Shown here in pieces: positions 3 to 8,181 of a stretch of DNA of 8,181 bases (position 1 is its first letter; every line of letters begins with the position of its first letter). The notes beneath the pieces were generated by a model, which worked only from the letters and a program-made list of their open reading frames with translations, did no database searches and was not told the DNA's origin. The position numbers and the translations under genes were made by a program. Origin of the DNA: an uncultured Candidatus Saccharibacteria bacterium (GTDB lineage Bacteria; Patescibacteria; Saccharimonadia; Saccharimonadales; CAMLKC01); assembly GCA_946480595.1 (NCBI GenBank), contig CAMLKC010000040.1, positions 1 to 8,181 on the forward strand, in the 5' to 3' direction.

Positions 3-929
3 AATCATGACATCTCTCCTGCCGATGGAACGGAAGTTTCAAACTATCTATTTCAAGCAATCAATAACGAAAAAGGGAATACGCACAACATTCTAAAAGG
101 GCTTTCTCAAAACGAGTGTCAGTCTATTATCTGCAAAAATGTTCATGACTTCATAAGGTCATACGTCAGCCCTGGAGACGTCCTGGTAGTCGGAGTATCT
201 GGAGGTGGGGATAGTAATTCTTTGCTGTTAGGCTTAACCAGCTTCACTGATTTCAGTTTTGACGTTCGTCCAGTAATTCTAAAAGGAATTCCGGACTGGG
301 ATGCAGGAGTACCTAGAGCTCTTGAATTGTGCAAAAGCTACGGTTTGCATCTTACCGTAGTAGAAGAAGAAGAAGTTCGTCAAATTTCAAAACTTAAAGA
401 CTCTAGCAACATTATCGGACAATATGAATCTATATTTCCAGGGGATGATTTTGAATTTCTTGGGACGTACATGATTCGCAAAGTACTGATGCATATTGCT
501 AGCTCTTGCAATGGCAGAGCAGTAACCGGACTCAATCTGGAGGATGTTTTTGCGGAAAGCTTACTAATGATCAGCAACAAGCGCCTGCCTCTACCTTTCC
601 CTGTGCGCAAGATCGATGGCATAGACTTCATTTACCCACTTTGGCTGTGCCCTAAAAAAATTATCGACGGTTGTTTCCCTAAGTTTTCAATGGAAAATTA
701 TGAAATGAGGTATCCGTGTTTTTCCACAGGGAGAAATCTATATTATATGATGACATACACTCTTCAATCTATGTATCCCGGAGCTCTCGAAAATTTGCTT
801 CGTGGATTCCAGAATATTAGCCAAAACAACGAACATGGATTTATGAGCGACCCTGATTTCGGCTCTTCCTTAAATGGAGAAATTGAAAATAACATCAGGG
901 AAAAATTCCTAAAAATTATGCTGCCTTAG
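3..929 (+). CDS. PP-loop ATP pyrophosphatase, TtcA/TilS-like (5' partial)
   Basis: The frame is open from the window edge, so the start lies upstream; 308 residues are visible (numbered from position 3). A TTG at 222 cannot be the true start because it falls just after the nucleotide-binding loop. Residues 59-76 form a beta-strand plus PP-loop, VVGVSGGGDSN, with SGGGDS at 66-71, the ATP signature of the N-type ATP pyrophosphatase superfamily. GLNLEDVFAES at 176-186 matches the second conserved motif (GHNxDDxAET in TtcA/TilS/Ncs6), with His replaced by Leu. The C-terminal layout (YPLWLCPKK, then YPCFSTGRN, then PGALENLLRGFQNI) follows TtcA, a tRNA 2-thiolation enzyme. However, the CxxC pair expected before the second motif is absent and the later CxxC reads CFST. 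The usual Fe-S ligand set is therefore not intact. Family known, reaction unknown: it adenylates a carbonyl or carboxyl substrate, for sulfur or amine attack. It is the first visible gene of the operon, 25 bp before the ATP-grasp gene. Confidence 0.82.
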   Translation, partial: NHDISPADGTEVSNYLFQAINNEKGNTHNILKGLSQNECQSIICKNVHDFIRSYVSPGDVLVVGVSGGGDSNSLLLGLTSFTDFSFDVRPVILKGIPDWDAGVPRALELCKSYGLHLTVVEEEEVRQISKLKDSSNIIGQYESIFPGDDFEFLGTYMIRKVLMHIASSCNGRAVTGLNLEDVFAESLLMISNKRLPLPFPVRKIDGIDFIYPLWLCPKKIIDGCFPKFSMENYEMRYPCFSTGRNLYYMMTYTLQSMYPGALENLLRGFQNISQNNEHGFMSDPDFGSSLNGEIENNIREKFLKIMLP

Positions 930-941
930 AGAAAGTTATAT

Positions 942-946
942 AGGGG
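942..946 (+). promoter_or_regulatory. Shine-Dalgarno for the TTG-initiated ATP-grasp gene
   Basis: AGGGG lies in the 25-bp gap after the PP-loop gene, 8 nt before a TTG codon at 955. The good spacing and the ensuing conserved N-terminal strand (NICLVIDP) support the TTG as the real start. Confidence 0.6.
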
Positions 947-954
947 TCTAAATC

Positions 955-2229
955 TTGAAAAATATCTGCCTAGTCATTGATCCAATTTCTACCAGCGTTC
1001 ATCTGCCCAAGGCACTGAAAGCATACGGCTTTAAAGTCGTTGGGATTTACACTAAAACTGTTAAGTCCGAATTGATGAAGCAGATAAACCTTCTAGATTT
1101 AGACCTCGTAATCCAACAAAGTCAGTTAGCATGGCCCGAAGAAGTTAACATTGAGAAGGTTGCATACGTAATACCTGGAGCCGATTCAGGAGTATATTTA
1201 GCTGACTATCTGGCTGGAATTGCTAAGATAAATCATTCGAATCCCCACCAGACTTCTGAGCTCCGCCGAAATAAATACGTAATGATCGAAGCAGTAACTG
1301 AAGCAGGACTTGCATCGATACGACAAAAAAAATGTTATTCACCAGAGCAAACGTATGAATTCCTAAAAGTTAACAAAATTATAAAGGCAGTAGTCAAACC
1401 CCAAGAAGGAATGGGCTCTGATCAAGTCTGGATTTGCGATACGGTTGAGTCAGCAACGAACGCAGCGTCACAGATATTGATGAATCCAAATATTTTCGGG
1501 GACCGGAACGACTCTGTGCTGGTACAGGAATTTATAGAAGGTGATGAATACATGATAGATACGATTTCTGTAGACGGTAGACATCGCATTATCGCGGCAT
1601 GGGAGTCCTATTTGGGCAGAAGCCAATCGCCTACACCACTTCATGCAGATGCAATTGATCATACGCATCTTATTTACTCCGCATTAGCCAATTACGCTCA
1701 GAAAATCCTAGACGTACTTGATGTAAAGTTTGGCGCGGCACATATTGAAATAAAACACAACCCAAAAACTTCGACCTTTTATCTGATTGAACTGAATCAA
1801 CGCTTTCATGGATCAATGAGCGTATTTTTTTCTACGATGGTGTACGGCACTAATCAAGTTGCCGAATTAGCAGCGGCAATGGCTAATCCGGATCAATATA
1901 AATCCACCACGAATATTATGCCTACCAAGAAGAAGCACGGAAGAAAAGTATACCTACGCTCATGTATTGAAGGCACTGTGCGTAAAGACCTAAATTCAAT
2001 ATATGAAAATAAATTTGAAAGCATTGTAGATATTATGTCGAGAGCCACCGTGGGAAAAAGTCTAACGAAGACTACTAGTTTAGCAACATCCCCAGGCACG
2101 ATCTTTCTATGCAATGAAAATCCTGAAATCTTAAACCAAGATTTCGATAAGATTCGCGAGACTGAAAACTTAGCCATGCACTCCCTGATTACTGAAACGG
2201 AGACAGGATATGAATTTATTCTTCAATAA
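955..2229 (+). CDS. ATP-grasp ligase, probable L-amino-acid ligase type
   Basis: This 424-residue protein has the ATP-grasp layout. An N-terminal pre-ATP-grasp fold begins NICLVIDP and includes YVIPGADSGVYLADYLA at about 73-89. The ATP-binding lysine motif is VVKPQEGMGSD (K148, with a glycine-rich loop at 152-156). VLVQEFIEGDEYMID follows at 188-202 (E192, E198). The metal-binding end is HIEIK (E265) and LIELNQRFHG (E279, N281, R283). Family members activate a carboxylate as acyl-phosphate with ATP and condense it with an amine. This architecture is shared with BacD-type dipeptide ligases and biotin-carboxylase-like ligases found in natural-product loci. It probably joins two amino acids or a modified amino acid in the cytoplasm. 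It starts with TTG behind AGGGG, and its last 20 bp overlap the dioxygenase gene. Substrates cannot be read from sequence. Confidence 0.88.
   Translation: MKNICLVIDPISTSVHLPKALKAYGFKVVGIYTKTVKSELMKQINLLDLDLVIQQSQLAWPEEVNIEKVAYVIPGADSGVYLADYLAGIAKINHSNPHQTSELRRNKYVMIEAVTEAGLASIRQKKCYSPEQTYEFLKVNKIIKAVVKPQEGMGSDQVWICDTVESATNAASQILMNPNIFGDRNDSVLVQEFIEGDEYMIDTISVDGRHRIIAAWESYLGRSQSPTPLHADAIDHTHLIYSALANYAQKILDVLDVKFGAAHIEIKHNPKTSTFYLIELNQRFHGSMSVFFSTMVYGTNQVAELAAAMANPDQYKSTTNIMPTKKKHGRKVYLRSCIEGTVRKDLNSIYENKFESIVDIMSRATVGKSLTKTTSLATSPGTIFLCNENPEILNQDFDKIRETENLAMHSLITETETGYEFILQ
2199..2202 (+). promoter_or_regulatory. Shine-Dalgarno for the dioxygenase, inside the ATP-grasp gene
   Basis: GGAG sits 7 nt before the ATG at 2210, within the 3' end of the preceding gene. 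It supports a true 20-bp gene overlap and translational coupling. Confidence 0.5.
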
Positions 2230-2956
2230 AAATAACTCACACTCTGAACGCTCCATCAGTTGGAATCGCGATGGTTTTGAGATATTGGGATCTCAATACT
2301 ACAAAAATAAAGTGCTCAATCTTTTTGACAGTACAACCCTTTCCCAATGGCATGATGCTCTAGAGCAGGCATTTAGCCAAGGTAGCTTTGACCATTACTC
2401 AACAGGAAACAGGATTAGGTGCCATATCAATTGTAAAATAGAACCTGACGGCACCTTAAGTTTTGGAAAGTTCAAACCATACATGCAACCACTGAAGTTC
2501 AATCCTATCACTGGGGGGTTAGTTAGAGAGTATAGTGAGATACACAGCAACTTACTCAACAATGGAATTTTTTTAGCTTTAATTAATGAAGATATCCAGT
2601 ATGCCAGTACTAATTCGTCAATAGATTTATCCAAGACGCTAATTGGTATTCATCTTATGCGCTACGCCGCTAAGCTTGAATCGCCCGCTTATAGCTCGCC
2701 TCCGTGGTTACATAAAGACAAAGAAGAAATGGTATTTATACACCATATCAACACTGATGACCGCATGATAGGCGGGGATAGCATCTTGGCAAAATCAGAG
2801 TTGGAAATAAGTAGAGTCTTTAAACTAGAGAAACATTTAGACTCGTTCGTAATGTCGCACAGAGTCTTTCACGCCGTATCTCCGATGGGCTGTAATGACG
2901 AAGATTTTGCCTATAGGGATATAATCCTAGTCACGTTTGAAAGGCTTGCAGAATGA
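2210..2956 (+). CDS. Fe(II)/2-oxoglutarate-dependent amino-acid dioxygenase, PF10014 type
   Basis: The 248-residue length is typical of the family that includes isoleucine 4-hydroxylase (IDO) and BsmA. Most of the diagnostic C-terminal half is visible. It reads SPPWLHKDKEEMVFIHHIN with the iron ligands H168 and D170, then RMIGGDSI (the GG(E/D)S turn). SHRVFHAVSPM supplies the distal histidine H221, and YRDIILVTF supplies R236, which should bind the 2-oxoglutarate carboxylate. The Fe(II) facial triad is complete. Family members hydroxylate (or sulfoxidise) aliphatic side chains of free L-amino acids, using O2 and 2-oxoglutarate and releasing succinate and CO2. The likely role is to hydroxylate a free amino-acid precursor or a small conjugate. 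It overlaps the ATP-grasp gene by 20 bp and shares ATGA with the next gene. The exact amino acid is unknown. Confidence 0.88.
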   Translation: MNLFFNKNNSHSERSISWNRDGFEILGSQYYKNKVLNLFDSTTLSQWHDALEQAFSQGSFDHYSTGNRIRCHINCKIEPDGTLSFGKFKPYMQPLKFNPITGGLVREYSEIHSNLLNNGIFLALINEDIQYASTNSSIDLSKTLIGIHLMRYAAKLESPAYSSPPWLHKDKEEMVFIHHINTDDRMIGGDSILAKSELEISRVFKLEKHLDSFVMSHRVFHAVSPMGCNDEDFAYRDIILVTFERLAE

Positions 2957-4041
2957 ACCACCCCCCCTCATTTTCATCGCCACCGTCTTTGACATTGGTG
3001 CGTTCGCTTACACAAAATATATTGAAAGAACAACAAGATAGAAAAACTGGACGAAACATCATTTTTTTTGCCGTTGATGGTATCCCCCACAACATTGCTT
3101 CTAAAGCTTGGATCGGGGCGTCGCAAATACTGGAAATGAGGTCAGTCATACCTTCTACGTCCAGCAGCGCTTGGACGTCTGCGTTCACCGGAAACACCGT
3201 GTCCCAGCACGGTGTTGTAGGCACTGTATTCAAAATAAATTGTGATGAACCACCGATAAATATTTATGATACTTTGAATTATACTCAACTATCAAGTACA
3301 GGCAATATCTTCAGCGATGCCAAGAGTCTCGGGTATATGCCAGTTGCTTTAGAGTCCGATTTATCTATCCTCTCCTGCAGATGGAAGTCCGACCTTCTAA
3401 ATAGCGCTACGATAATAAATTCAGGAGGTTTTTTTTCTAACTTACCCCCTAATAAAGGCTCACTGGAAGTCATCAAGAAAAAGCTAAAAGACTGCATAGC
3501 TGATATCACATCAGAGCACAACAGCCCTAAATTTATCTGGTGCTTTCTAGACATTGATCATTGGATACATAACATCGGCTACTCCTCTCTAGTTAGTGAG
3601 TTTCTCGCGTTTATAAATGACTTTTCCATTGAACTAACCAATTTAGACCATGTCGTTATCGCTCATTCCGATCATGGCTTGGTCCCTATAAAAAACTGCA
3701 GTTTTATAGAAAGCTTAATTTGCACTATCACTGAGTCTTTCAATGCTACTATGGGTGGCGCAGGTCGGGTTCGCTGGTTTTACTCCAAATACCCCGAAGA
3801 GTATTTGCTTGATACTCTCAAGTCAAACTCTAAAGGCTTACTTAATGTATATTCTAATAAAGAGTATACATCTGCTAACAACCTGACAGGGCAAGCAGCT
3901 CTCAGAATTGGTAAGGCTATTATCACCCCAACGACAGACTCTTTCATTAACGAAGCCGGATATACGTATGAACACGGCTCAAATTCCCCCCAGGAACTCA
4001 ACATCCCTTTTGCATGTTGGAAGCCCGATAATGAAATCTAG
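2953..4041 (+). CDS. Alkaline-phosphatase-superfamily phosphodiesterase/phosphatase
   Basis: The 362-residue protein carries all the metal-site motifs of the nucleotide pyrophosphatase/phosphodiesterase branch in order. D42 is in FFAVDGI. The nucleophile loop is PSTSSSAWTSAFTG (67-80), where S70 (or T69) takes the place of the usual Thr. D202 and H206 are in LDIDHWIHNIG, D240 and H241 in SDHG, and H341 in YEHGSN. A two-zinc active site is therefore predicted intact. No signal peptide is visible, so it should act in the cytoplasm on a phosphorylated or nucleotidylated intermediate rather than as a periplasmic scavenging phosphatase. It starts in the ATGA overlap with the dioxygenase gene and overlaps the aminotransferase by 11 bp, so it belongs to the same transcript. 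Phosphomonoester, diester and phosphonate substrates cannot be separated from sequence. Confidence 0.82.
   Translation: MNHPPSFSSPPSLTLVRSLTQNILKEQQDRKTGRNIIFFAVDGIPHNIASKAWIGASQILEMRSVIPSTSSSAWTSAFTGNTVSQHGVVGTVFKINCDEPPINIYDTLNYTQLSSTGNIFSDAKSLGYMPVALESDLSILSCRWKSDLLNSATIINSGGFFSNLPPNKGSLEVIKKKLKDCIADITSEHNSPKFIWCFLDIDHWIHNIGYSSLVSEFLAFINDFSIELTNLDHVVIAHSDHGLVPIKNCSFIESLICTITESFNATMGGAGRVRWFYSKYPEEYLLDTLKSNSKGLLNVYSNKEYTSANNLTGQAALRIGKAIITPTTDSFINEAGYTYEHGSNSPQELNIPFACWKPDNEI
4019..4023 (+). promoter_or_regulatory. Shine-Dalgarno deciding the aminotransferase start
   Basis: GGAAG lies 7 nt before the ATG at 4031. It favours this ATG over the in-frame TTG at 3908, which would force a 134-bp overlap and add 41 residues unlike the family. 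Confidence 0.5.
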
Positions 4042-5071
4042 GCTTGGTATTGACACATACGCTAATCAAGAAAAAACGCCAAACGCATTAATAGATCTTT
4101 CTTGGACAACAGACGAGAATCACTTTTTAAGTTTGAGCGTGTGCGAGCTTATTAATAACTTGCTGCTAACTGAGATCAACAACCCTAACGCATTATGGAC
4201 AAAGTATCCAGTTATGGATCCTTACGGCTCTAATGAAATATTGAGTAGTGCAGTCAAGCAGTTTAACACGCGGCTTACCGCGACCCAAGTCACAGTAGGA
4301 ACGGGAGTAACTAGTCTAATTTGTCATTTAACTAAGATTAAAACTGATGCATTTCAAATTTTCGAGCCTGCCTATTTAGACTTTTCACATTGGCTGAGCA
4401 TTGCAAATAAGAAACACATAATCACTGATGTTTCAGCAAAAAAAACTGAAAAGTATTATTTTCTCGAGCATCCTAATTTCTACAACGATTGCGATGAAGT
4501 TTTTGATTTAATTTCAAACATACAATCTCAGCACAATGAAGAAGCCATTATTATTATCGACGAATCTAATGCTAACTATCTATCGCCCGACCAAAGCGCC
4601 GTTCGCTTAGTAAACGAAGTCCCTGGCGTTGTAGTACTACGTGGATTTTCAAAGGCCTATGGGCTTGGCTCGCTCAGATTAGGTGTTTGTATTTCCTCTC
4701 CAAATATATCTCAGAGTATCAGATCGCTATTCCCGCCCCTTGCTTTTACACCAACGAGTTTACGAGTCGCTCGTATTCTCTGGGAGAACGGAGATATCCA
4801 AAAAGGATTAAGAACTCGTATATCGTCCGCCCGAGAAAAATTTCTTCCTATCTTTAATAAGTTTAATGAATTATCCATTATACCTTCCAACCCAGCTCTA
4901 CCCTACGTTATATTTAACAGTGACTCTAAAGAGTTTTTGGATTCAATTGGGGTGCAGACAAAGCTTCATACCATGTCTGTATCGCCTGGCAATGTAGCAA
5001 TCGTATGCAGACTCAGCTTACCTTTGCTCGATGAAAGACAAAAAATCCTGCATTCAATATTAGAAAAATGA
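4031..5071 (+). CDS. PLP-dependent aminotransferase, HisC/CobD-like (fold type I)
   Basis: Starting at the ATG at 4031, the protein has 346 residues, the usual size for histidinol-phosphate aminotransferase or threonine-phosphate decarboxylase relatives. Visible features are an N-terminal DLSWTTDENHF strand (the LSxNEN region of the family), a VGTGVTSLI cofactor-phosphate loop, and D177 in IIIDESNANY for the pyridine nitrogen. The Schiff-base lysine K208 is in RGFSKAYGLGSLRLG with R216, and C-terminal R327 (CRLSL) is where HisC binds the substrate carboxylate. The canonical DEAY reads DESN: the tyrosine that contacts the cofactor is an asparagine, with Y183 six residues after D177, so substrate or reaction may differ from true HisC. 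Amino transfer or decarboxylation of an amino acid are both possible. It is the last gene of the operon and ends 20 bp from a convergent transporter gene. Confidence 0.85.
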   Translation: MKSRLGIDTYANQEKTPNALIDLSWTTDENHFLSLSVCELINNLLLTEINNPNALWTKYPVMDPYGSNEILSSAVKQFNTRLTATQVTVGTGVTSLICHLTKIKTDAFQIFEPAYLDFSHWLSIANKKHIITDVSAKKTEKYYFLEHPNFYNDCDEVFDLISNIQSQHNEEAIIIIDESNANYLSPDQSAVRLVNEVPGVVVLRGFSKAYGLGSLRLGVCISSPNISQSIRSLFPPLAFTPTSLRVARILWENGDIQKGLRTRISSAREKFLPIFNKFNELSIIPSNPALPYVIFNSDSKEFLDSIGVQTKLHTMSVSPGNVAIVCRLSLPLLDERQKILHSILEK

Positions 5072-5091
5072 ACATAAGAACTCTCAATTTA

Positions 5092-6255
5092 TTAGCGACG
5101 ACACAATAAACTTATAGTCGTCGCACTCATCGCAGCAGAACTAGCAAATATTAAAAATACATAAGCCATATCCAATTGCTGATAACCCATTAAAAAAGTC
5201 CCTACAAACATCCCCACGCCCTCCCCGACGCTTGTAGCTATCGAACTAAATGTGAACGCCAAGCTTTTCTGGTGAGCAGGTGTTGAGATAGCAACTGCTT
5301 CCGACAATGCTGGAAGCGTTATGATTTCAGCTACCGTGAATATCGAAATAGCAAGCACAAAGTTATATATACTCACCCCCACCCATAGTATAAAAAAAGC
5401 CAAACCAAACACCATCAGACCCAGCACTATTTTTGAGAAAAAACTAGAAAAAACTACTTCTATCTTTTGATTTATCCACAAAGAGAAACATATCACGCAA
5501 ATCGAATTTATAGCATAGACCCCACCTAAATATACACCACCTAAATTTTCATTAACCGCTAGAGGCAGCGCAGAATTTATTTGAGCATAAAAAAAACAAA
5601 CAACAGCTGACAAACATAGAACCATCTTTAAGCTCTTATTTTCTTCGACACCGTCTGCCCGCTCTATGGCCGCAGCGCTACTGGAGAAATGGCTATCTAA
5701 CTCTAATTTATTAAGCCTTAAGCTCAATAAAGCAATAGGCATAGAAAACAAAACGACAAACAAACAAAACAGATTAAACTTACCAATGCTGATCGCCCCC
5801 GCTGCCAGCAAGGGCCCGCAGCATGCAGCAATATTGTTTACAACCGCCAATTTTGAAAAAGCACGATACAATTTTGTCGCAGACAACTCGGTAATTATCA
5901 ATTTTGTTTTTATTGATGCGCACAAATAACAAAATTCCATCATAAAAACTGCCACAAACATCAACAAAATTGAGTCGCTTTCAGCCCACAACATCATTGC
6001 TAACCCAGAGCCAAGCGAAAAAGATGCATGACTAGTAAGCGCAGTTTTTTTATCAAAAAAATTGTGCATCAATAACCGTATTGCTTTCGGCAAACACGCG
6101 ATGCCTGCCATAAAAAACGGCACCACGCCCTCTTGCCCCGATAACTTATCAATTAAAAATACAGCTAGAACGGAGAGAGCGGAGTAGCGAATAAAGCAAA
6201 AATAAAAATTCACTACGTATACAACAGTAGTCACTTTAATTTTGATAGCATCCAT
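5092..6255 (-). CDS. MFS-type 12-TM transporter, probable product exporter
   Basis: The 387-residue protein consists almost entirely of hydrophobic segments. I count about twelve (near 11-35, 46-64, 78-94, 97-117, 138-160, 162-183, 211-235, 240-262, 272-293, 299-320, 333-359 and 364-385), with a polar loop in the middle (about 185-210), the pattern of the major facilitator superfamily. A cytoplasmic loop after TM2 contains FFDKK, loosely resembling the MFS motif-A loop. ATG at 6255 is chosen as start because AAGGG lies 7 nt upstream; a TTG two codons earlier (6261) has poorer spacing. It is transcribed towards the biosynthetic operon and stops 20 bp from it, so it has its own promoter. Export of, or self-resistance to, the operon product is the natural inference; uptake of a precursor is the alternative. 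Confidence 0.8.
   Translation of the reverse strand: MDAIKIKVTTVVYVVNFYFCFIRYSALSVLAVFLIDKLSGQEGVVPFFMAGIACLPKAIRLLMHNFFDKKTALTSHASFSLGSGLAMMLWAESDSILLMFVAVFMMEFCYLCASIKTKLIITELSATKLYRAFSKLAVVNNIAACCGPLLAAGAISIGKFNLFCLFVVLFSMPIALLSLRLNKLELDSHFSSSAAAIERADGVEENKSLKMVLCLSAVVCFFYAQINSALPLAVNENLGGVYLGGVYAINSICVICFSLWINQKIEVVFSSFFSKIVLGLMVFGLAFFILWVGVSIYNFVLAISIFTVAEIITLPALSEAVAISTPAHQKSLAFTFSSIATSVGEGVGMFVGTFLMGYQQLDMAYVFLIFASSAAMSATTISLLCRR
5095..5124. terminator. Inverted repeat at the convergent gene ends
   Basis: GCGACGAC (5095-5102) and GTCGTCGC (5117-5124) are perfect 8-bp inverted repeats. A further ATAA/TTAT pair lies in the 14-nt loop. It overlaps the last codons of the transporter gene and lies 23 bp after the aminotransferase stop, so it could serve both converging transcripts. 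Neither side has a clear U-tract, so intrinsic termination is uncertain. Confidence 0.35.
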
Positions 6256-6262
6256 TATCAAA

Positions 6263-6450: not shown

Positions 6451-6606
6451 TTCAACAAAATTAAGCCTCACGCTTTCAACGATGTCGATGGGGATATCGA
6501 TAATTACCTCTCTGCTGTCATCGCCTGGATCCTGAGATGTCAAAAAAACCCGTTCCCCCTAACGTTTGATCTTAGAACCCTCAACGGCAAAAGCCAAAAA
6601 AGCTAG
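6451..6606 (+). pseudogene. Remnant resembling P2 gpR-type phage tail completion protein
   Basis: Between a TGA at 6448-6450 and a TAG at 6604-6606 is a 51-codon open stretch without a good start codon. Its middle, DVDGDIDNYLSAVIAWILR (from 6481), lines up without gaps with the core of P2 gpR as I recall it (DFTGDFDLLIVPVLAWLR). The D-x-x-GD-x-D pattern, the V-x-AW and a following Gln are shared. LTFDLRTLNG after it resembles the next strand of that family. gpR proteins are about 150 residues and cap the phage or pyocin tail, so this is at most an internal fragment lacking both ends and is non-functional. The comparison is from memory, so confidence is modest. Confidence 0.35.
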
Positions 6607-6865
6607 AGCAAAACCGTGGAGACCTGAAAAGACAGAGCAACTTTTCTCGTCAGCCGATACCGCCAACAATAATGAAGTCACTGTGGGGCGCGAAACCTAT
6701 GCGCTTTGTTATAGCATTCTTTTTGCAGGATGGTGCGCGCGAGCTTTATTCAAAGGTGTCGGTCGCGGTTCCCCTTCTCCACGAGCATTGCAACACCGAC
6801 TGATTACTTTCGGGTTTGGGTATGGTGGTGAATGCGCCGCTGAGCAGCCCCGTCAGGGGAGTTGA
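6566..6865 (+). CDS. Doubtful 99-codon reading frame, unknown
   Basis: This frame would start with TTG at 6566 inside the phage remnant and has no clear Shine-Dalgarno sequence. The first half is Lys/Ala/Glu-rich. The second half contains YALCYSILFAGWCARALF, a short hydrophobic patch, followed by a Gly/Arg-rich tail. It recalls small spurious frames often called beside prophage regulatory regions, but I cannot name a family. Its 3' end is built from the bases that form the predicted structured RNA at 6813-6895, so the reading frame may simply be a shadow of RNA-coding or decayed DNA. Treat it as hypothetical. Confidence 0.25.
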   Translation: MILEPSTAKAKKARAKPWRPEKTEQLFSSADTANNNEVTVGRETYALCYSILFAGWCARALFKGVGRGSPSPRALQHRLITFGFGYGGECAAEQPRQGS

Positions 6866-6895
6866 AGATCGGCCTTAAGGCCGCCAGACCGAACC
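6813..6895 (+). ncRNA. Predicted multi-branch structured RNA, possibly phage regulatory
   Basis: GGTTTGG (6813-6819) pairs with CCGAACC (6889-6895) over 7 bp including one G-U, closing a junction. Inside are three small hairpins: GGTG/CGCC (6824-6827 with 6835-6838, one G-U), CCCC-GTCA-GGGG (6848-6859) and CGGCC-TTAA-GGCCG (6870-6883, a perfect 14-nt palindrome). Two of these have tetraloops. A closing stem around consecutive GC hairpins is more than expected by chance and suggests a stable RNA on one of the strands. Next to a phage remnant, a c4-type antisense immunity RNA is one candidate, but I cannot confirm family membership. No promoter is assigned. Confidence 0.4.
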
Positions 6896-6906
6896 GCTAT
6901 CCCTCT

Positions 6907-6933
6907 GAACCCAAAAACAGCAAAGGTGGGCTC
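6907..6933 (+). terminator. Weak hairpin after the structured RNA
   Basis: GAACCCA (6907-6913) pairs with TGGGCTC (6927-6933) with one mismatch. It is followed by AAAATTTTTG rather than an immediate U-tract. It could terminate the RNA above, but it is a weak candidate. Confidence 0.2.
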
Positions 6934-6988
6934 AAAATTTTTGATACGAATAATATAGCTCCGTGCACTCGATTATCATGTCGGACAA

Positions 6989-7059
6989 CCTGAGGTACTC
7001 AGGCTCATCAGCGGGCTTGTGCATCATGAGACAGCCGCAGGAATCCTGCGTGACTGATG
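6989..7059 (+). promoter_or_regulatory. Structured leader covering the ATG at 7057
   Basis: Three perfect stems occur in 71 nt. The first is CCTGAG-GTA-CTCAGG (6989-7003). The second is CGCAGG-AAT-CCTGCG (7036-7050). The third is an enclosing stem, CATCAG (7006-7011) with CTGATG (7054-7059), whose 3' arm contains the ATG at 7057. In RNA this would sequester that start codon. It may be a translational control leader, or evidence that initiation actually occurs at the GTG at 7090. Confidence 0.35.
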
Positions 7060-7788
7060 TTTAGCGACCAACCTTATAAGGATCGTAGTGTGGAAAAAAT
7101 AGCAGGATTTTTCCTTAAAAAAATGTGGCCAACCGTATGTGCATCCGTGTACGACGCGCGGACGCTCATCCAATCAAATACAGCATTTTTTGATGGGATG
7201 AAAGCGCGTACCGGGATTTGCTCGCGGGCTTGGTTGTTTGGAATATTTGTTGCGATCGGGCTGGGTTTACTGGGGTTACCAGCGTCTCGGTCGGCGGGCA
7301 TTACGCCCACCGTTGAGTTTGCAGGGATAATGACCGTAGCTAACTGGTTGCTGGTCGCGCTCTACGGGTTGTGTTTCGCATTGGCCGCTCGGATCCTAGG
7401 GAGCCGGCGTGAGATATTGGTCAGCGTGAATACCTTTTTCTACGTTTCTGGCTGGCTGGTAGTACTCAAGCTGTTTGAAATGCCGGCACTTGGGGCACGC
7501 TTCAAGGCGATGGCGCAAAGCTGTACTTCGATCAGCTACGACCAGGCGGTCACAACAGCGATCATGCAAAGCCCGATGGCAAGGGTGTCGGATATAATGG
7601 TGTTAATTGGCTACGTGCTCTTCATCGGCTTCGCTGTCGTGAAAATGCAGCGACGGGTTCACGACTTCGGAGGTACTCGCGCGTGGCTCTCTACGGTAGT
7701 AGGCATGGCCTTGCTGAGCGCGGCGGTTGTGTTTGTACAAGGGCCCATCATCTCGCAGTTGATCTGCAGCTACACCAGTCAGCCCTGA
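7057..7788 (+). CDS. Five-TM inner-membrane protein, unknown function
   Basis: The frame encodes 243 residues from ATG 7057. An N-terminal cytoplasmic-looking segment of about 55 residues (with DARTLIQSN and FFDGMKARTG) is followed by about five membrane segments near 58-77, 88-113, 120-145, 178-197 and 210-236. HDFGG at about 205-209 precedes the last segment. The overall shape, a soluble N-terminus then five hydrophobic helices, resembles Yip1-like membrane proteins, but I see no decisive motif. The ATG lacks a Shine-Dalgarno sequence and lies in a predicted stem. GTG at 7090 has AAGGA at 7078-7082 with 7-nt spacing and would give 232 residues starting (M)EKIAGFFLKK; I consider it at least as likely. 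Codon use is GC-richer than in the operon to the left, so it probably belongs to the host background. Confidence 0.7.
   Translation: MFSDQPYKDRSVEKIAGFFLKKMWPTVCASVYDARTLIQSNTAFFDGMKARTGICSRAWLFGIFVAIGLGLLGLPASRSAGITPTVEFAGIMTVANWLLVALYGLCFALAARILGSRREILVSVNTFFYVSGWLVVLKLFEMPALGARFKAMAQSCTSISYDQAVTTAIMQSPMARVSDIMVLIGYVLFIGFAVVKMQRRVHDFGGTRAWLSTVVGMALLSAAVVFVQGPIISQLICSYTSQP
7078..7082 (+). promoter_or_regulatory. Shine-Dalgarno for an alternative GTG start
   Basis: AAGGA lies 7 nt before GTG at 7090, which is in frame with the membrane protein. No comparable site precedes the ATG at 7057, where the nearest AGGA is 14 nt away. Confidence 0.4.
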
Positions 7789-7860
7789 GTGTGGCAATCG
7801 ATTACAACCTCGGTCAGTGGTGCCGGAGCATGATTTAGCTAAAATTGCATCCGATGAGTA

Positions 7861-8019
7861 TTGGCTGAGAGCGTGGGGTGGAAAAAGCTGAACTGGAAAA
7901 CGAGGTTTGGCAGTGTACGGCTCGCTCGTACGGGAGGGCTGGCAGAGGTCATTGGCGGTGCGTTGCCCCCCTATGCGCGCCCGTCAGGCCATGACGACAT
8001 GACCCGTGAGCTGGTTTAA
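7861..8019 (+). other. Short 52-codon reading frame, uncertain
   Basis: A TTG-initiated frame (alternative GTG at 7873) ends with GALPPYARPSGHDDMTRELV before TAA. The composition looks protein-like near the end but there is no clear ribosome binding site and no family I recognise. It may be a decayed gene end. The rest of the interval from 7789 to 8020 shows nothing else I can support. Confidence 0.2.
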
Positions 8020-8181
8020 TGGCATGTATCGAACCAGAGTGGGCGTTTTTCGGAAGCAAGCAGCCTAAGTGGAGGCTTCTTGACCTCAGATCATGATAGA
8101 GGCAAGTTTCTGCGCTTCATTGATATTGGCGAGGTGATTTCGCTGTTCAGCCAGGTCGGCAACGACTCCCCCATCCTAATC
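8020..8181 (+). other. Open frame running off the window, possible partial or decayed gene
   Basis: Directly after the TAA at 8017-8019, the same frame stays open for 54 codons to the edge. Protein-like text begins near 8041, GRFSEASSLSGGFLTSDHD, then FLRFIDIGEVISLFSQVG. There is no ATG or GTG; a TTG at 8080 is the only candidate start. It shares its frame with the preceding short ORF, so both could be one gene interrupted by a stop. No family is recognised. Confidence 0.25.

Follow-up and report, generated by a model that had tools for sequence, protein, structure and literature searches.

We conclude that the 8,181-nt stretch analysed here (hereafter the window; contig CAMLKC010000040.1 of an uncultured Candidatus Saccharibacteria bacterium) probably carries the 3' part of an apparently uncharacterised and widely scattered class of ribosomal-peptide pathways. 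Such a pathway likely makes a ribosomally synthesized and post-translationally modified peptide (RiPP) or uses a peptide as a scaffold, and its likely hallmark is an adenylating PP-loop enzyme with the TtuA/NcsA fold but without the Fe-S CxxC. Observed gene content, synteny, peptide conservation and protein folds carry this reading. Judged by its sequences, the window would represent a sub-type whose ligase is HilD/DdaF-like and whose dioxygenase is HilB-like, its chemistry and product being predicted. An earlier note on this DNA had described a compact biosynthetic operon, free of nonribosomal peptide synthetases and polyketide synthases, with two different ATP-using bond-forming folds and a facing exporter gene. 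That description stands on reading frames, family matches and gene overlaps, and the open reading frames (ORFs) confirm all six genes at the positions given to them:

3..929, plus strand: PP-loop ATP-pyrophosphatase, 5'-truncated (open frame, SGGGDS motif, homologues with 44-52% identity)
955..2229, plus strand: ATP-grasp carboxylate-amine ligase, DdaF/L-amino acid ligase-like (PF13535)
2210..2956, plus strand: PF10014 Fe(II)/2-oxoglutarate dioxygenase, HilB/IDO-like
2953..4041, plus strand: AP-superfamily protein, nucleotide pyrophosphatase/phosphonoacetate hydrolase-like (PF01663)
4031..5071, plus strand: fold-type-I pyridoxal 5'-phosphate (PLP) enzyme, CobD/HisC-like (PF00155, invariant Lys208 in SKAYG)
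5092..6261, minus strand: MFS transporter, convergent, likely an exporter (PF07690; homologue in the same place in the closest relative)

Overlaps of 20 bases between the ATP-grasp and dioxygenase genes, 4 between the dioxygenase and AP genes and 11 between the AP and PLP genes argue for one co-translated operon. The PLP start was set at 4031 instead of 3908, following the starts of homologues, and the transporter may start at 6261 (TTG) or 6255 (ATG). The ATP-grasp protein matches PF13535 (2.5e-12), an L-amino acid ligase in the PDB (30vh, 1.8e-28) and, over nearly its whole length and well below the equivalog cut-off, the model of dapdiamide A synthase DdaF (NF041595; 166.8 bits against 840). 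The dioxygenase matches PF10014 (2.7e-33), L-isoleucine-4-hydroxylase (PDB 6lnh, 7.7e-35) and the HilB model NF042428 (195.3 bits, below the cut-off of 350). The match of the AP protein to PF01663 is at 1.1e-6, and its fold together with its metal and nucleophile residues places it in the nucleotide pyrophosphatase (NPP)/phosphonoacetate hydrolase branch. The PLP enzyme matches PF00155 (7.2e-10) and reaches neither the CobD cut-off (70.5 of 290.55 bits) nor that of HisC (65.7 of 276.55 bits); its Lys208 is invariant in the alignment with homologues. The transporter matches PF07690 (3.2e-8) with 33.3 bits, marginally under the cut-off of 33.4.

The closest relative is locus L011 of Gluconacetobacter sacchari LMG 19747. 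Its genes run in the order precursor peptide, M28/DUF4910 peptidase, a 348-amino-acid protein, PP-loop, ATP-grasp, a flavin adenine dinucleotide (FAD) protein (NAD_binding_9), AP and PLP, with the MFS gene convergent; those of the window run PP-loop, ATP-grasp, PF10014, AP and PLP, again with the MFS gene convergent. The window dioxygenase thus occupies the slot of the L011 FAD protein. Because the FAD protein is present in all 12 other loci of the same PP-loop clade (clade 1) and absent from the window, while the dioxygenase occurs in the window alone, the oxygenase has been exchanged at one operon position, which suggests that the step served there is an oxidation. This ATP-grasp gene and this MFS gene are confined, among clade-1 loci, to the window and L011. 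The 348-amino-acid protein (L011:1860-2906) has no Pfam match at E<=0.1, has a relative in a Legionella metagenome-assembled genome (MAG; 1.1e-12) and, judged by eye, resembles GNAT/FemAB proteins.

The clade-1 set comprises 12 PP-loop loci besides the window, from hosts that include Pantoea, leaf-nodule Burkholderia, a Lysobacteraceae MAG, Myxococcus, Saccharothrix, Actinokineospora, alphaproteobacterial MAGs and Gluconacetobacter. The AP gene accompanies the PP-loop gene in 12/12, the M28 gene in 11/12, the PLP gene in 10/12 and an NDK-like gene in 9/12, the last being absent from the window and from L011, which also lacks the LLM and amidase genes. The earlier note had taken the six genes to belong together; across distant phyla this holds for PP-loop and AP and largely for PLP, in part for the ATP-grasp and MFS genes, which only L011 shares, and fails for the dioxygenase. 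Two leaf-nodule Burkholderia symbionts (L002 and L004) retain the cluster. Both Pantoea clusters (L001:6168-7786 and L010) are without the NDK-like gene and have after the PP-loop gene, in its stead, a weakly kinase-like protein and a phosphoenolpyruvate-binding protein.

The way the loci were collected bears on these counts. An AP profile run against a species-genome collection identified 32 loci, not an exhaustive set, as three peptide patterns were used for the scan, and a plasmid search added one from Pantoea agglomerans, for 33 AP sources in all. Since most loci were retrieved by way of their AP gene, its co-occurrence is partly by construction; peptides, PLP, M28 and FAD genes were not selection criteria. 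The PP-loop gene is present in 20/33 sources, comprising 18 of the first 19, where its presence was mostly established beforehand, and 2 of the remaining 14, including G1210 (behind L018), where it lies outside the fetched stretch. Within their stretches, 14 of the 32 loci are without it: ten of Lentzea type (L013, L015-L019, L021 and L024-L026), together with L020, L029, L030 and L033; these 14 do not enter the clade-1 and sister-clade counts. AP and PP-loop invariably occur together only among the eleven sources nearest to the window, L001-L011 (28-36% to the window AP), where AP, PP-loop and PLP stood together in 6 at first pass and, with profiles and wider stretches, PP-loop adjoins AP in 11/11. 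Among loci found through the PP-loop gene itself, centre genomes left out, AP is present in 6/12, one of these 12, the Pantoea plasmid, having also been found through AP. PP-loop homologues are rare: 1 of 394 Enterobacterales genomes, 1 of 200 in the order of G. sacchari and 1 of 61 in the genus of the Pantoea centre have one, each being the centre itself, and with the centre included the counts are 8 of 394 in the class of G005 and 2 of 145 in the order of the Myxococcus genome. None of 45 pattern matches in viral contigs was confirmed, and the Pantoea PP-loop gene gave no blastn match in Escherichia coli genomes.

Central to our reading is a conserved peptide gene in 11 of the 12 other clade-1 loci; the remaining one, L004, lies at a contig end with only 82 bases before the PP-loop gene. 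The peptide has 67-71 amino acids and ends in (C/T)G(A/G)SC(E/D)TGAQ, within a near-invariant C-terminus ASKxGLExICGASCETGAQ, which in L011 reads LCGASCAVGAM. An ORF of about 70 codons stands upstream of the PP-loop gene in L001, L002, L005, L006 and L010 and farther up in L011; L009 was added by motif, and L008 and L062-L064 by profile. The peptide gene precedes the PP-loop gene by 72-293 bp, on the same strand, in 8/11 loci. In L011 it precedes it by 2.5 kb, with two intervening genes, whereas L008 and L009 have it on the opposite strand, at distances of 5.4 and 7.7 kb. Over the last 22 codons, synonymous codon differences number 464 against 274 non-synonymous ones (55 pairs from 11 loci). 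The first peptide profile matched 411 proteins at E<=1; among the 120 of these matches listed, sorted by their final ten residues, 77 end in CGASCETGAQ, 13 in TGASCETGAQ and 8 each in CGASCDTGAQ, CGGSCETGAQ and CGASCEIGAH, and six show single variants, and the sources listed include Klebsiella, Serratia, Dickeya, Pectobacterium, Vibrio, Burkholderia, Lysobacter, Myxococcus, Streptomyces and Micromonospora. A single sample of 394 actinomycete genomes from the class of G005 yielded both the peptide and the clade-1 PP-loop gene in G005 alone; scoring in each search covered only some of the first-look candidates. The earlier note had assigned the product to free-standing enzymes working on free amino acids. 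As the relatives carry a dedicated peptide gene, mostly directly before the PP-loop gene, the product probably derives from a ribosome-made peptide and not from free amino acids alone.

The PP-loop protein needs closer description. The window holds 308 amino acids of it against 400 in the L011 homologue, the window edge cutting the gene at its 5' end so that about 90 N-terminal residues fall outside. Pfam gives no match for it, and NCBIfam only a weak one, to TtcA (E=0.004); its identity is secured by the SGGGDS motif, the homologues and the TtuA-like fold of the L011 protein. In TtuA/NcsA tRNA sulfurtransferases the CxxC is a ligand of the Fe-S cluster. The L011 protein has the fold of these enzymes, but the CxxC positions align with the F and L of an FEFL stretch that the window protein shares, a third ligand was not located, and the N-terminal part differs. 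Nor is the family a sequence-level member of the tRNA-lysidine synthetase TilS, to which the match (E=0.0038) spans just 44 positions. In the PP-loop tree the window and L011 proteins are sisters with support of 98/97, the tool warning of long branches and of the window's unusual amino-acid composition. A 6-thioguanine-type pathway, which uses the PP-loop protein YcfA, was an early candidate and was set aside without sequence comparison.

A sister clade of PP-loop proteins, 16-20% identical to that of L006, occurs in actinobacteria and the Legionella MAG. Of its 11 loci, 10 have AP and 9 have M28; a PLP domain occurs in 9 and belongs to a methyltransferase-PLP fusion (by Pfam for the Legionella protein and by profile for the others). 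A peptide ending in KFRT(T/N)C(T/S)DCVPN(Y/F/M/L) is present in 10/11, often directly before AP; examples with the conserved ending are L022:9829-9972 and L027:9699-9842, and it is also found in L028, L032, L055, L056 and L069-L071, mostly with PP-loop, AP, M28 and the fusion. In L020 this peptide (9627-9920) stands with an NDK-like gene and AP. Two further near-identical loci, those of G917 and G979, have IRFRTCCADPRASR upstream of the PP-loop gene and count as about one, their peptides being identical and their PP-loop proteins nearly so. On a Geobacillus plasmid LLRFRTCATDPITSW directly precedes the PP-loop gene, and on a Xenorhabdus nematophila plasmid typed as conjugative (L034:13753-15200) a 56-amino-acid peptide ending in DICGGSTRVVSG directly precedes PP-loop and MFS genes; on both plasmids the small peptide gene is annotated. 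Unvalidated ORFs of 60 and 55 amino acids lie 220-260 bases upstream of solitary PP-loop genes in L035, where the ORF ends in FVLCASALTAQV, and L058. The strongest case for the peptide as substrate or scaffold is that peptides differing in sequence occupy a similar position next to the same kind of enzyme.

Several observations weigh against a peptide pathway in the window. Neither peptide profile matches it, which follows from its beginning inside the PP-loop gene, and it lacks the genes for M28, NDK-like, LLM and amidase proteins that most clade-1 loci carry. No peptide was found at the Legionella MAG locus; L020 has the sister-clade peptide and AP, yet no PP-loop gene was found in its genome; and PP-loop homologues in G956, G860, G709 and Paenarthrobacter are without a peptide of either family and without every partner tested, although two of these four have the unvalidated ORFs of L035 and L058 upstream. 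AP relatives at about 25% occur independently of the PP-loop gene, mostly in Lentzea, with 12 of 14 further genomes from AP loci lacking it. We also know of no assayed activity for any of these proteins. Even so, the window's own cluster likely has a peptide gene and an M28 gene by analogy with its relatives, and the missing precursor would be expected to be of the CAVGAM type found in L011.

Each catalytic step can be proposed only weakly. The peptide of about 70 amino acids would serve as substrate or scaffold, and the PP-loop enzyme may adenylate an amide or carboxylate on it. The NPP-type phosphodiesterase would then work on a nucleotidyl or phosphoryl group, and the oxygenase (the FAD protein in other loci, PF10014 in the window) would oxidise. 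The M28 peptidase might free the product, and the CobD/HisC-like PLP enzyme might act on the released amino-acid part. In the sub-type of the window and L011, the ATP-grasp ligase may join the unusual amino acid with a further residue, and the transporter may export the coupled product.

It is unlikely, in our judgement, that the window encodes a sub-type without a peptide precursor, in which free-standing enzymes would make a modified amino acid or a dipeptide antimetabolite of the bacilysin/Hil type. All window enzymes could act on small molecules, the window shows no precursor, and the Hil operon, for which a bacilysin-like dipeptide was proposed, also has ATP-grasp, PF10014 and MFS genes (PMC3684760). 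Against this, the nearest syntenic relative encodes a precursor within the same gene run, along with an M28 peptidase, and its peptide belongs to a CAVGAM sub-family of 6 members, from G. sacchari, Serratia marcescens, S. rubidaea, Vibrio spartinae, Pantoea agglomerans and one further source. The L011-type peptide gave no match in plasmids.

About as doubtful is a microcin C-like peptidyl nucleotide, a reading that overlaps ours and differs in the final product: the peptide would retain an AMP or phosphate group from the PP-loop enzyme, and it would be trimmed by the NPP-like enzyme and exported by the transporter. The Xenorhabdus and Geobacillus plasmids, with peptide, PP-loop and MFS genes and, on the latter, a nucleoside-phosphorylase-like protein, would fit such a product, as would the NPP-like fold of the AP protein and the NDK-like protein of most clade-1 loci. 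However, the NDK-like gene is missing from the window and L011, Pfam finds no ThiF/MccB domain in the window genes, and the PLP enzyme, oxygenase and ATP-grasp protein are left unexplained. A chance neighbourhood or a decaying cluster, to which the truncation and the unseen M28 gene might point, is very improbable: the synteny with L011, the open frames, the start-to-stop overlaps and the retained key motifs all speak against it.

Per 500 bases, GC content stays at 38-42% over the first 6.5 kb and then rises to 50-56%, a pattern consistent with acquired DNA; window DNA gave no megablast match to plasmids. The higher-GC region 6500-8181, with a 243-amino-acid ORF at 7057-7788 that has no match in Pfam, NCBIfam or PHROG, may be host DNA.

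Genes for Clp ATPases at some loci provide a testable target, and that a Clp unfoldase is the target of the product is a lead and not a finding. ClpX- or ClpC-like genes lie beside PP-loop clusters at L008:12701-14128, L006:17126-18511 (minus strand), L023:20065-20541 (minus strand), L034:16408-17298 and L036:10793-12064. Actinokineospora and Saccharothrix each have a ClpX paralogue inside the cluster and a second ClpX elsewhere. A partial ClpX-like frame adjoins the PP-loop gene in the Legionella MAG, a ClpX-like AAA protein follows it by two genes on the Xenorhabdus plasmid, and an AAA protein with a Clp N-terminal domain lies near it in Geobacillus. Counting against such a target, just 2 of the 12 clade-1 loci have a ClpX gene, and G002 and G011 have more than one ClpX match with none in the fetched cluster stretch.

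More tentatively, and with slightly less than even confidence, we suggest that the class spans Proteobacteria, Actinomycetota, Myxococcota and perhaps Bacillota, and that a PP-loop enzyme of the tRNA-thiolase fold was recruited in it to adenylate peptide amides or carboxylates, together with an NPP-type phosphodiesterase, as a functional analogue of YcaO or MccB. The ClpX/ClpC paralogue of some loci would mark a Clp unfoldase target, and the window would make a peptide-derived amino acid finished by a Hil-type dioxygenase and ligase. If our reading is correct, it opens a scattered group of peptide-derived pathways, undescribed in the literature searched, that the conserved C-terminal peptide signature makes easy to mine, and it extends the roles of PP-loop enzymes to peptide modification.

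The searched literature, which was judged from listings and mostly did not cover subscription journals, held no account of this PP-loop/peptide family, a weak absence. The earlier note's view that no characterised pathway has this set holds on that basis for the whole set, and fails for the ATP-grasp, PF10014 and MFS module, which is not new, as the Hil operon of Pantoea ananatis (HilA/B/C, D and E) has a PF10014 dioxygenase, a PF13535 ligase and an MFS gene in one locus (PMC3684760). In the part of that account available, the gene list has no PP-loop, AP or precursor-peptide gene, its PLP gene is of PF00291, and the union of such a module with a PP-loop/AP/PLP peptide cluster is not described (PMC3684760). 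The Hil core consists of HilR, HilP, HilA, HilB and HilC (PMC3684760); of these, only a PF10014 protein is present in the window, which lacks HilR, HilP, PF13640 HilA and PF00106 HilC. Like microcin C, the minimal plasmid loci combine a small peptide, an ATP-dependent activating enzyme and an MFS transporter, but they have a PP-loop enzyme where microcin C has ThiF, and the peptides are unrelated. Peptide aminoacyl-tRNA ligase (PEARL) pathways, which reportedly yield 3-thiaglutamate and ammosamide on peptide scaffolds, need a LanB-like ligase, a domain that Pfam did not find in the window genes, 8 L002 ORFs or 10 L011 ORFs, whereas the C-terminal residues in the PP-loop loci are gene-encoded. 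The PP-loop loci resemble these pathways in that the peptide C-terminus may act as scaffold and a small product may be released by a peptidase.

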